64,000 bases of DNA from Solirhodobacter olei. Its GTDB lineage: Bacteria > Pseudomonadota > Alphaproteobacteria > Rhodobacterales > Rhodobacteraceae. Both the position numbers and the translations under genes were made by a program. The DNA lies in contig NZ_RRYH01000007.1 in NCBI RefSeq assembly GCF_004010155.1, positions 186,001-250,000 of the forward strand, read 5' to 3'. The number at the start of each line of letters is the position of its first letter. The stretch's first letter is position 1. This document shows positions 59,324-61,905 of this stretch, piece by piece. The notes beneath the pieces were generated by a model, which worked only from the letters and a program-made list of their open reading frames with translations, was not told where the DNA came from and made no database searches.

Positions 59324-60621
59324 CCGTGGCCCTTACCGGGGCGCCCGAGGGCGGCCCCGCCTCCGATATCATCCTCGAACGGCTGATGTCGCTGCACCCG
59401 AAGTTCATGGATCTGACGCTGGACCGCTCCTGGCGCCTGCTCGAGGCGCTGGGCAATCCCCAGCGCACGCTGCCGCCGGTGATCCACCTCGCCGGGACCA
59501 ACGGCAAGGGCTCCACCCAGGCGATGATCCGCGCCGGGCTGGAGGCCGCGGGCAAGACCGTCCACGCCTATACCTCGCCGCACCTCGCCCGCTTTCACGA
59601 GCGCATCCGCGTGGCGGGAGAGCTGATCTCCGAGCCCGACCTCTCGGCACTGCTGGAGGAATGCGAGCAGGTGAACGGCGGCCGGCAGATCACGTTTTTC
59701 GAGATCACCACCTGCGCCGCCTTCCTCGCCTTCTCCCGCACCCCGGCCGATGCGCTGCTGCTCGAGGTCGGCCTCGGCGGCAGGCTCGACGCGACCAACG
59801 TGATCGACAGGCCGGCGCTGACCATCATCACCCCGGTCTCGCTCGACCATCAGCAATACCTGGGCGAGACGCTGGCAGAGATCGCGGGCGAGAAGGCCGG
59901 CATCCTGAAGCGGCTGACGCCCTGCGTCGTCGGCCCGCAGTCGCCCGAAGGCCTCGCCGTGATCGAGGAGAAGGCCGCCCGCCTCGGTGCGCCGCTTCTG
60001 GTCCACGGCCAGCACTGGCATGCGCGCGAAGAAAACGGCCGCCTGATCTTCGAGGACGAGACCGGCCTTCTGGACCTGCCGCGCCCGAACCTGCCCGGCC
60101 CGCACCAGATCGAGAATGCCGGCGCCGCGCTGATGGCGCTGCGCCACCTCGGCCATGACGAGGCCGCCTGCGAGGCCGCCGTCACCCGCGCCTTCTGGCC
60201 CGCCCGGATGCAGCGGCTGAAGACCGGCCCGCTTCCGGAAAGCGCGCCGGGGGTGGAGCTCTGGCTCGACGGTGGCCACAACCCGGCCGGCGGGCAGGCG
60301 GTGGCGGGCACGCTTTCGGCCATGGCCGAGCGCCCGACGCACCTGATCTGCGGCATGCTGAACACCAAGGATGTCGGCGGCTACCTGCGGCCGCTGAAGC
60401 CCTTCGTCCGCACGCTTCACGGCGTCACCATCCCGGACAACCCTGCGACGCTGACGGGGGCAGAGACCTGCGCCGCCGCCCGCGCCGAGGGGATCGAGGC
60501 CCATGAGGCCGAAAGCCCCGCCGCGGCGCTCGCCGCCATCGTGGCGAAAGACCCATCCGCCCGGGTGCTGATCTGCGGCTCGCTCTACCTCGCGGGCGCG
60601 ATCCTGCGCGAAAACGGCTGA
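59320..60621 (+). CDS. folC: Bifunctional folylpolyglutamate synthase / dihydrofolate synthase
   Basis: 433 residues from GTG 59320, overlapping the accD stop by 4 bases. FolC adds glutamate to dihydropteroate and folates. The P-loop G-T-N-G-K-G-S-T is at 59-66, T-S-P-H-L and R-F-x-E-R-I-R-V follow, then F-E-I-T-T-C-A-A-F, the E-V-G-L-G-G-R-L-D-A-T-N motif, and the second-domain L-D-G-G-H-N-P-A-G. Length is normal. Coupled to accD. A promoter for the downstream aroG leader lies just after its stop. Confidence 0.95.
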   Translation: MTVALTGAPEGGPASDIILERLMSLHPKFMDLTLDRSWRLLEALGNPQRTLPPVIHLAGTNGKGSTQAMIRAGLEAAGKTVHAYTSPHLARFHERIRVAGELISEPDLSALLEECEQVNGGRQITFFEITTCAAFLAFSRTPADALLLEVGLGGRLDATNVIDRPALTIITPVSLDHQQYLGETLAEIAGEKAGILKRLTPCVVGPQSPEGLAVIEEKAARLGAPLLVHGQHWHAREENGRLIFEDETGLLDLPRPNLPGPHQIENAGAALMALRHLGHDEAACEAAVTRAFWPARMQRLKTGPLPESAPGVELWLDGGHNPAGGQAVAGTLSAMAERPTHLICGMLNTKDVGGYLRPLKPFVRTLHGVTIPDNPATLTGAETCAAARAEGIEAHEAESPAAALAAIVAKDPSARVLICGSLYLAGAILRENG

Positions 60622-60644
60622 GGCTGCCCCCGCGCCGAATCTTC

Positions 60645-60673
60645 GTGACAGCGCGGGCGGGCCGTCCTATGGT
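60645..60673 (+). promoter_or_regulatory. Candidate promoter for the DAHP synthase leader
   Basis: GTGACA (60645-60650, five of six to TTGACA), a 17-base spacer and TATGGT (60668-60673). Transcription would start close to 60680, which is the A of the leader peptide ATG, so the transcript may be leaderless, as I recall for trpL of Sinorhizobium meliloti. This fits the absence of a ribosome site before the leader ORF. Confidence 0.5.
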
Positions 60674-60679
60674 CCACCC

Positions 60680-60754
60680 ATGTCGACACTGAACGCCTAT
60701 GCCGCATCGTTTTATTGGTACCGCTGTCTCCAGCGGATGCCGGGTGCTGCCTAG
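60680..60754 (+). CDS. Leader peptide with Phe-Tyr-Trp-Tyr codons (DAHP synthase attenuator)
   Basis: 24 codons from ATG 60680 to TAG 60752-60754, too short for usual gene calling. Residues 10-15 read S-F-Y-W-Y-R: Phe-11, Tyr-12, Trp-13 and Tyr-14 are consecutive codons at 60710-60721, with another Tyr at position 7. Four aromatic codons in a row just before an RNA hairpin, and a terminator before an aromatic-pathway gene, indicate a ribosome-stalling attenuator that senses all three aromatic amino acids. It has no Shine-Dalgarno and is probably translated from a leaderless transcript. The stop codon lies between RNA strands 2 and 3, as in trp leaders. Confidence 0.8.
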   Translation: MSTLNAYAASFYWYRCLQRMPGAA

Positions 60755-60814
60755 TCGATCTTCCCAAACCGACTGAGAACCCCGAAAGCCGCTGGTCCAT
60801 CCGGCGGCGTTTTC
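60721..60814 (+). promoter_or_regulatory. Attenuator RNA with competing 1:2, 2:3 and 3:4 stems
   Basis: Strand 1 CCGCTG (60721-60726) pairs perfectly with strand 2 CAGCGG (60731-60736). Strand 2, extended to CCAGCGG (60730-60736), pairs perfectly with strand 3 CCGCTGG (60789-60795). Strand 3, GCCGCTGG (60788-60795), pairs with strand 4 CCGGCGGC (60801-60808) with one G-U pair. Strand 1 begins at the last aromatic codon. A ribosome stalled at F-Y-W-Y would cover strand 1 and leave 2:3 to form, preventing 3:4. A ribosome at the leader stop would cover strand 2 and permit 3:4. Confidence 0.8.
60788..60814 (+). terminator. Attenuator terminator (strands 3:4)
   Basis: GCCGCTGG (60788-60795), loop TCCAT, CCGGCGGC (60801-60808), then GTTTTC. 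Eight pairs including one G-U, and a short U tract, 36 bases before the aroG start codon. This is the termination half of the attenuator. Confidence 0.75.
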
Positions 60815-60849
60815 ATTCGCGCGGCTGGACCCCCAAGGAGAAGACAGCC

Positions 60850-61905
60850 GTGCTGACCGCCACCGACGATCTCCGCATTGCCGAGATCACGCCCCTCACC
60901 TCGCCCGCCGCCGTCCTGGCGGAACTGCCACGCGATGCCGCCGCAACCGCCACCGTCATGCGCGGCAGGCAAGCCGTCCGCGACATCCTGCACCGCGACG
61001 ACGACCGCCTGCTTGTCGTGATCGGCCCCTGCTCGATCCACGATCCCGCCGCCGCGCGCGACTACGCCGCCCGTCTCGCCGCCGAACGCGCCCGCCACGC
61101 GAAGGATCTGGAGATCGTGATGCGGGTCTATTTCGAGAAACCGCGCACCACGGTCGGCTGGAAGGGTCTGATCATGGATCCGCGCCTCGACGGCAGCTGC
61201 CGGATCGAGGAGGGGCTGCGCCTCGCCCGCCGCCTGCTGCTGGAGATCAACGCCATGCACCTTCCGGCGGGCAGCGAGTTCCTCGACCCTATCACGCCCC
61301 AATACATGGCCGATCTCGTCAGCTGGGGCGCCATCGGCGCGCGCACGACCGAAAGCCAGATCCACCGCCAGCTCGCCTCCGGCCTGTCCTGCCCCGTAGG
61401 CTTCAAGAACGGGACCGAGGGCAACGTCGAGATCGCGCTCGACGCCATGCTCTCCGCGTCGCAGCCGCACCGCTTCCCGGCGGTGACGAAGGAGGGGCTC
61501 GCCGCGATCGCCACCACTCAGGGCAACGCCGACTGCCATGTCATCCTGCGCGGCGGGCGCGTGCCCAACCACTCCGCCGCCGATGTGGAGGCGACCGCGA
61601 AGGCGGCAGAGGCCCGCGGCCTCGCCCCCCGCATCCTGATCGACGCCAGCCACGCCAACAGCGGCAAGGACCCGGCCCGGCAGCCGGAGGTCGTGGGTGA
61701 CATAAGCGCCCAGGTCGCCGCCGGCGACAGGCGGATTCAGGGCGTGATGATCGAAAGCAACCTCCGCGCCGGCAAGCAATCCGCCAAACCCGGCGCGCCT
61801 CTGGTCTACGGCCAGAGCATCACCGACGGCTGCATCGACTGGCCCAGCTCGCTTTCCGTGCTGGAGCGGCTGGCAGAGGCTGTCCGTCGCCGCCGGGAGG
61901 CCTGA
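60850..61905 (+). CDS. aroG: 3-deoxy-7-phosphoheptulonate (DAHP) synthase, type I
   Basis: 351 residues from GTG 60850, behind AAGGAG at 60836-60841; the frame is open to 60715, but that would translate the attenuator. It condenses phosphoenolpyruvate and erythrose-4-phosphate in the first step of the shikimate pathway. Type I-alpha (AroFGH-like) features: G-P-C-S-I-H-D (59-65), Y-F-E-K-P-R-T-T-V-G-W-K-G, G-A-R-T-T-E-S-Q-I-H-R, G-F-K-N-G-T and D-A-S-H-A-N-S. The N-terminal feedback-binding extension of the E. coli enzymes is present in the first 40 residues. Controlled by the attenuator at 60680-60814. A long hairpin follows. Confidence 0.95.
   Translation: MLTATDDLRIAEITPLTSPAAVLAELPRDAAATATVMRGRQAVRDILHRDDDRLLVVIGPCSIHDPAAARDYAARLAAERARHAKDLEIVMRVYFEKPRTTVGWKGLIMDPRLDGSCRIEEGLRLARRLLLEINAMHLPAGSEFLDPITPQYMADLVSWGAIGARTTESQIHRQLASGLSCPVGFKNGTEGNVEIALDAMLSASQPHRFPAVTKEGLAAIATTQGNADCHVILRGGRVPNHSAADVEATAKAAEARGLAPRILIDASHANSGKDPARQPEVVGDISAQVAAGDRRIQGVMIESNLRAGKQSAKPGAPLVYGQSITDGCIDWPSSLSVLERLAEAVRRRREA

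Follow-up and report, generated by a model that had tools for sequence, protein, structure and literature searches.

The entry to the shikimate pathway is a control point of aromatic synthesis, and the enterobacterial thr and ilvGMEDA leaders are examples in which several amino acids of a branched pathway are read by one leader. For the DAHP synthase genes of E. coli, control by TyrR and TrpR is described (as summarized in PMC5343134 and PMC11802643). The closest known system to the one reported here is the aroR leader that precedes aroF in C. glutamicum, for which ribosome-mediated attenuation is reported (Neshat et al., 2014, as cited in PMC11802643 and PMC4046766). The class I DAHP synthase gene of Solirhodobacter olei follows a leader region that is very probably a ribosome-mediated transcription attenuator of the classical type controlling aroG; the switching itself we infer from the sequence.

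Organization of the aroG leader region

The window analyzed here is a 64,000-nucleotide stretch of the S. olei genome (contig NZ_RRYH01000007.1), and all coordinates refer to it unless another locus is named. Positions 60645-60850 hold an aromatic leader ORF, four pairing strands (1-4) and a terminator, after which aroG begins. The features are as follows, with the evidence for each in brackets.

60645..60650, + strand: -35 hexamer GTGACA (promoter scan; GTGACA or a near variant lies 5' of many relatives' leaders)
60668..60673, + strand: -10 hexamer TATGGT, separated from the leader ATG by 6 nt (promoter scan)
60680..60754, + strand: leader ORF of 24 codons, MSTLNAYAASFYWYRCLQRMPGAA (read from the sequence; conserved leader ORFs in relatives)
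60710..60721, + strand: sensor codons TTT TAT TGG TAC, F11-Y12-W13-Y14 (read from the sequence)
60721..60726, + strand: strand 1, CCGCTG (pairs with strand 2)
60731..60736, + strand: strand 2, CAGCGG, antiterminator, within the leader ORF (pairing in alignments and predicted fold)
60742..60745, + strand: GGGT, second half of the antiterminator (partner ACCC at 60779-60782 in the predicted fold)
60779..60782, + strand: ACCC, partner of GGGT at 60742-60745 (predicted fold)
60788..60795, + strand: strand 3, GCCGCTGG (terminator scan; 3:4 pairing in alignment A1)
60801..60808, + strand: strand 4, CCGGCGGC (terminator scan; 3:4 pairing in alignment A1)
60809..60814, + strand: terminator tail GTTTTC (terminator scan)
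60835..60841, + strand: Shine-Dalgarno sequence AAGGAGA of aroG (read from the sequence)
60850..61905, + strand: aroG, class I (AroFGH) DAHP synthase (TIGR00034, 493.2 bits; cut-off 173.2)

An earlier note on this DNA, made from the letters alone, had described a 24-codon ORF at 60680-60754 with Phe, Tyr, Trp and Tyr codons ahead of aroG, and the sequence confirms it. Strands 1, 3 and 4 also lie where that note had placed them, but strand 2 occupies 60731-60736 rather than 60730-60736; the terminator with its GTTTTC tail stands before the GTG start codon of aroG at 60850, at a distance of 35 nt instead of 36. Strand 1 overlaps the end of sensor codons 11-14, strand 2 follows another 4 nt downstream, and the first base of the leader stop codon (60752-60754) is 16 nt past strand 2. 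The leader ORF has no Shine-Dalgarno sequence.

A scan of 60500-61000 found GTGACA-17-TATGGT as the sole promoter (0.0 expected) and two terminators (0.2 expected), the second of which is on the opposite strand. The terminator at 60788-60814 reads GCCGCTGG-TCCAT-CCGGCGGC-GTTTTC, with a longest T run of only four, a point against efficient termination. Folding of 60700-60815 is more stable than that of shuffled sequences (z -3.37, 0/200 as good). The S. olei genome also encodes a class II DAHP synthase (G000:C40:103355-104665, L127), so that aroG, although correctly regarded in the earlier note as the pathway's first enzyme, is a second DAHP synthase beside the class II one.

Occurrence among relatives

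A leader was defined as an ORF of 8-45 amino acids, located within 350 nt 5' of aroG, in which four or more aromatic residues fall within a stretch of eight. Such an aromatic-rich leader is present in all 97 loci of the main set (17 family loci, own included, plus the best 80 of at least 575 confirmed relatives), so that the comparison with relatives proposed in the earlier note finds the aromatic run conserved. The same search was positive in 116 of 1940 dinucleotide shuffles (6%), in 50 of 2196 windows taken elsewhere in these loci and on 9 of 97 antisense strands; presence across the relatives' loci, set against these controls, excludes a chance origin of the leader. The parts themselves and their order are thus plain from the sequences, as is their conservation.

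A leader is also found in 28 of 29 further loci from the phylum sample, and in 10 of 40 distant class I genes hand-picked from the phylum listing, for which presence was judged by eye (among the 40, L166 scored 5 but was not counted, its score being judged spurious as it reflects a Trp-Pro-Arg string 326 nt upstream). Because the 97- and 29-locus sets are by construction the nearest relatives, with partly overlapping species, their fractions describe the AroG lineage and not class I DAHP synthases generally. Leaders occur in alpha-, beta- and gammaproteobacteria, and members of the lineage include Rhizobium, Bradyrhizobium, Mesorhizobium, Devosia, Achromobacter, Dyella and Paracoccus. The earlier note's framing in terms of Rhodobacterales was therefore too narrow: the element is found there but is not special to that order, belonging instead to an AroG lineage in three proteobacterial classes. 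Close to S. olei the gene is rare. Class I aroG is present in 1 of 41 close genomes (its own), absent from all six other same-genus genomes examined (one of them 70% complete), and present in 17 of 394 genomes of the family sample, own included.

Locus L120 is the sole leaderless one among L001-L126, and its clade mates L104 and L123 have the leader; a recent leader loss is possible. L120 and the 30 leaderless loci among the 40 distant ones are left out of the statistics given below for 135 leaders. Because the named and unnamed sets of genomes overlap, some species may count twice (L098 and L027 have an identical leader region), and the leader of L134 was entered with a start too far upstream, except in the aromatic-run and codon-by-frame counts.

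Leader peptides, codon usage and predicted promoters

The 135 leaders encode 114 distinct peptides. The main aromatic run includes both Phe and Tyr in all 135 leaders, and Trp in 97. Composition of the run varies between groups, for example FYWY, FWYFYY and FYFYFY. Aromatic codons number 832 in frame vs. 331 and 246 out of frame, a count that is not independent evidence since leaders were chosen by in-frame aromatic content. Codon choice within the leaders is biased: Phe is encoded by UUU in 278 of 362 cases (77%), compared with 69 of 770 (9%) in the aroG genes of the same loci and 3 of 51 in five genes of the window, and Tyr by UAU in 226 of 367 compared with 302 of 748 in the aroG genes. The rows of this comparison are related, so p-values are overstated, but a Phe effect of this size is evident all the same. 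On one reading of the UUU preference, slow wobble decoding sharpens sensing; on another, the aromatic run is kept free of G+C-rich pairing.

Two types of leader, A and B, were aligned separately, and the window has type A. All 29 of the 24-codon leaders of type A have TTT at codon 11 and TAT at codon 12, and the residues F11, Y12, R15 and R19 are invariant; peptide positions outside the run and the strands vary. Codon 13 (60716-60718 in the window) is Trp in 10 of these leaders, Ser in 14 and Tyr in 5, and 12 of the 14 Ser codons are TCG, a single base from TGG. Rhizobium leaders are among those with Ser here.

In 120 of 135 leaders, 6-8 nt separate the -10 hexamer of the best promoter from the ATG. 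The same spacing is seen in 119 of the 134 leaders that have 60 nt of upstream sequence, compared with 192 of 2680 shuffled sequences and 14 of 124 of the 60-nt regions preceding aroG. An AGGA resembling a Shine-Dalgarno sequence stands before 97 of 135 aroG starts but before 5 of 135 leaders, the aroG count being affected by relatives' starts that were projected from the alignment, roughly so for the 10 distant loci. Because the -10 sits 6-8 nt before the ATG and Shine-Dalgarno sequences are rare, the leader is predicted to be translated from leaderless RNA, and the conserved spacing would put the transcription start of the window's leader at 60680.

Base pairing and covariation

The type A alignment (A1) has 30 rows, comprising the window, three family members and the Rhizobium group, with the duplicate L098 omitted. 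The type B alignment (A2) consists of 50 rows hand-picked from 88; L062, L126 and L134 lie outside the 88. A terminator by strict rules lies between leader stop and aroG in 124 of 135 loci (5 of 135 shuffled spacers), and allowing a longer loop finds one in the remaining 11 (2 of 135 shuffles); those 11 were omitted from the extended 2:3 test and from per-locus folding.

Compensatory changes are seen in both the 1:2 and the 3:4 stems. For 1:2 in type A, 96.1% of cells are paired (29-63% when the strands are slid) and 11 cells are changed on both sides, a value that 0 of 500 shuffles reached; column pair 52:59 is UA in 23 rows, GU in 4, CG in 2 and AU in 1. For the 3:4 terminator, all 240 cells are paired in A1, with GC/AU exchanges at two pairs, and in type B 96.3% of the core is paired, the basal pair being GC in 31 rows, AU in 18 and GU in 1. 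Cells changed on both sides of 3:4 number 10 in type A and 26 in type B (0 of 500 shuffles as high). Related rows inflate these double-change counts for 1:2 and 3:4, and shuffles often reach the number of covarying pairs, 2 in each case (278, 205 and 474 of 500).

The antiterminator core, 2:3, is paired in 86.3% (type A) and 93.0% (type B) of cells and hardly varies, as is expected of a strand 3 that has to fit both strands 2 and 4. In A1, two cells are changed on both sides, with a score reached by 115 of 500 shuffles; in A2 there is one such cell (208 of 500 shuffles) and the score is reached by 17 of 500, but two slid versions score higher. Conservation of the stems, which the earlier note had put forward as a check, is thus borne out for 1:2 (in type A) and for 3:4, while 2:3 pairing is conserved with slight covariation. 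Strand 2 resembles strand 4, and CTGGCGG occurs in both in many type B rows. Between the window and L003, strands 1, 2 and 3 change in concert, from CCGCT, AGCGG and CCGCT to CCGCC, GGCGG and CCGCC.

Energy tests of 2:3 were run with a short and with an extended strand 3. In the window, the terminator arm as the only strand 3 beats 92 of 100 shuffles, and the arm with the preceding 25 nt beats 197 of 200. With the short arm, at most 5 of 100 shuffles are as good in 60 of 135 loci (124 testable). Of the 81 loci that belong neither to type A nor to the L005-L017 group, 66 have an extended pairing better than at least 190 of 200 shuffles; in the window's own group only 4 of 31 loci reach that mark. 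The run length of the GGG/CCC extension pairing is weak against shuffles in nearly all of the 30 rows.

Proposed switching and predicted folds

We infer the start site, translation, stalling and switching from these features. The transcript would begin with the A of the leader ATG or a neighboring base, and a ribosome would load on the leaderless end. Were charged tRNA for Phe, Tyr or Trp to run short, the ribosome would stall at codons 11-14 and hide strand 1; strand 2 and GGGT would then pair with strand 3 and the upstream ACCC, no terminator would form, and RNA polymerase would read into aroG. With all three amino acids plentiful, the ribosome would reach the stop codon at 60752-60754 and cover strand 2, leaving the 3:4 terminator to form and transcription to end before aroG.

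We modeled the ribosome with its edge about 14 nt downstream of the first base of the A-site codon. Modeled stalls at F11, Y12 and W13 leave strand 2 free with strand 1 wholly or mostly masked; at Y14 the ribosome partly covers strand 2, and at Y7 it leaves 1:2 free. With the ribosome at W13 and strand 4 not yet made, the predicted fold is a long 2:3 antiterminator spanning 60731-60798 (-23.4 kcal/mol), and after release at the stop codon the terminator is predicted to form (-18.0 kcal/mol). In the full-length window RNA with a stalled ribosome, the predicted terminator (-28.5 kcal/mol) is favored over the antiterminator (-24.6 kcal/mol) despite the stall, so the switch would act kinetically, by order of synthesis. 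Across 124 loci, at least half of strand 3 is predicted to pair into the leader in 118 with a ribosome placed mid-run, compared with 67 without one. Against the model, strand 3 is also predicted to pair into the leader in L001, L006, L060 and L074 when these are folded up to strand 3 with no ribosome.

AroG phylogeny, gene neighborhoods and plasmid copies

A quick tree of AroG, with SH-aLRT support only, was built from 102 of 166 proteins hand-picked to thin near-copies. The leader label requires 5 changes on this tree compared with 26.9 for shuffled labels, and one side of a branch with support of 99 contains 53 rows, all of which have the leader. AroG from the window and from L002-L004 joins Rhizobiaceae rows (fork 99) with the same leader type, and the remaining 13 family members (L005-L017), which have the other leader type, group with Devosia and Rubellimicrobium rows (fork 97). 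On this one tree, leader and gene appear to have entered the family at least twice, together each time. Gene and switch probably travel together, because the leader type follows the AroG tree and the six same-genus genomes are without the gene. The Trp codon has undergone at least 8 changes among 71 tree rows.

At none of the other 125 loci, over flanks of 1.5-3 kb (less in a few), does folC or the LLM monooxygenase gene have a match near aroG; the element follows aroG rather than its neighboring genes. With 401 bases of L018 as the query, blastn returned no match in plasmids. Plasmid copies of aroG were found by protein search, and we examined 4 of 11 Paracoccus records and one from Caballeronia. 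In all four Paracoccus records aroG is preceded by a leader of the window's type and by the hairpin, and the closest gene annotated upstream lies on the opposite strand, 270-726 nt away (the gene table is incomplete). The leader of Paracoccus denitrificans PD1222 (L217), MSHRMPCTISFYWFRCPQRSRV, belongs to this same type. The plasmid aroG examined from Caballeronia has no such leader. In P. pantotrophus (L219), about 170 nt before aroG, the frame after FYWFR differs from that of P. denitrificans and alters the end of the peptide, yet CAGCGG and the aromatic run are kept, consistent with the run serving to code and the remainder acting as RNA.

Alternative explanations

In TnaC, a leader peptide arrests the ribosome in response to tryptophan. 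That the nascent aroG leader peptide similarly arrests the ribosome when it meets a free aromatic compound, with the supply of charged tRNA playing no part, would agree with the invariance of F11, Y12, R15 and R19 in all 29 type A leaders, but we judge it very unlikely: the aromatic run differs in order and number between groups, the 77% use of UUU for Phe (9% in aroG) points to decoding, and R15 and R19 fall within strands 1 and 2, where RNA pairing may explain their constancy. The variability of the peptide beyond the run and strands argues against action in trans, in addition to control in cis, by the terminated leader RNA or peptide, as with rnTrpL/peTrpL of S. meliloti, to which we give a slimmer chance still; in its favor, the predicted leaderless RNA of about 135 nt with a 24-amino-acid ORF is laid out like rnTrpL (as described in PMC7298713 and PMC10117765).

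We also considered, and rejected as having next to no probability, that the hairpin is a mere folC terminator and the ORF an accident of a lower-G+C spacer. In the window, folC ends at 60621, on the same strand and 166 nt before the hairpin, as this would have it. But none of the 125 other loci has a folC match by aroG and 124 of them nevertheless have the leader, while leader and hairpin are also present in the four Paracoccus records with the upstream gene on the other strand. Attenuation by a ribosome decoding the aromatic run is the reading we retain.

Searches of RNA and peptide families and of the literature

The RNA model R1, built on type A with strict filters, misses many type B leaders. 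It matches 8 of 289 class genomes at E ≤0.01, and six of these matches are leaders of this kind: five (own and L210-L213) beside class I aroG, and L214 near a contig end, in a stretch without aroG. L210 was counted on model score and aroG, its leader ORF not being listed by the ORF rule. Two weak matches considered as the element before other genes, L215 and L216 (25.0 and 26.2 bits), are without aroG and look like chance. On the S. olei genome, the only site that an RNA model matches well is the one described here (E 4e-20; next 5.7).

No model of Rfam release 15 (4227 models) matches 60400-61200 up to E 5. At gathering scores, Rfam found only glycine riboswitches among eight relatives; these are tandem aptamers at 420-511 and 522-613 of L101, elsewhere in that locus. 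Leader peptides had no match at E ≤1 in NCBIfam (0 of 7) or Pfam (0 of 4), where peptides this short score poorly. Our literature search, with most subscription journals outside its scope, returned no description of a leader before these proteobacterial DAHP synthase genes. A 2004 survey of proteobacterial attenuators by Vitreschak and colleagues may already list some such leaders. The website of predicted attenuators by Merino that is cited in PMC1173090, and said there to include some before tyrA operons, may also hold aroG entries.

Significance and comparison with known systems

By testable sequence criteria this is a real and conserved element, very probably an attenuator, and it is more widespread than the earlier note supposed. 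What seems to be new, with priority provisional, is that it belongs to a single AroG lineage that extends from alpha- to gammaproteobacteria. This proteobacterial DAHP synthase lineage appears to use a single leader to read two or three aromatic amino acids. A broader proposal, for which we would give even odds, is that we are dealing with a pan-aromatic family of attenuators, as yet uncatalogued, in which one leader adds up the demand for Phe, Tyr and, in many cases, Trp. The family would be one that is translated from leaderless RNA, is tuned by the wobble codons UUU and UAU, gains and loses the Trp codon, and spreads with its DAHP synthase gene. Such a unit of leader and gene would explain how a transferred gene brings its own control, and the natural swaps of codon 13 between Trp, Ser and Tyr would offer a series for studying how attenuator specificity evolves.

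The reading of several amino acids by one leader is shared with the thr and ilvGMEDA leaders, which differ in the amino acids and genes involved. The trpL-trpE system of S. meliloti is likewise an alphaproteobacterial attenuator with a transcript that begins at the leader AUG, as described in PMC10117765 and PMC7298713; it differs from ours in reading Trp codons and in the gene controlled, and its start is measured where ours is predicted. The uORFC-13-1 motif of Acholeplasma (PMC8632094) is also a predicted uORF with a terminator before a DAHP synthase gene, aroF, but is described there as having at least one Phe codon in a U run and its own secondary structure, and it comes from another phylum. 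The attenuator hypothesized for E. coli aroF (Camakaris, 1980, as cited in PMC2659441; see also PMC8632094) would again control a DAHP synthase gene, and is said in PMC2659441 to sense Tyr-tRNA, in contrast to the mixed codons of our leader. The aroR leader of C. glutamicum, which we liken to ours by description only, belongs to another phylum, is presented in the sources cited above with no mention of a Trp codon, and reportedly responds to Phe but not Tyr (PMC11802643, PMC4046766); like the leader of S. olei, it is short, carries adjoining Phe and Tyr codons (Phe-Tyr-Phe) and stands before a DAHP synthase gene.
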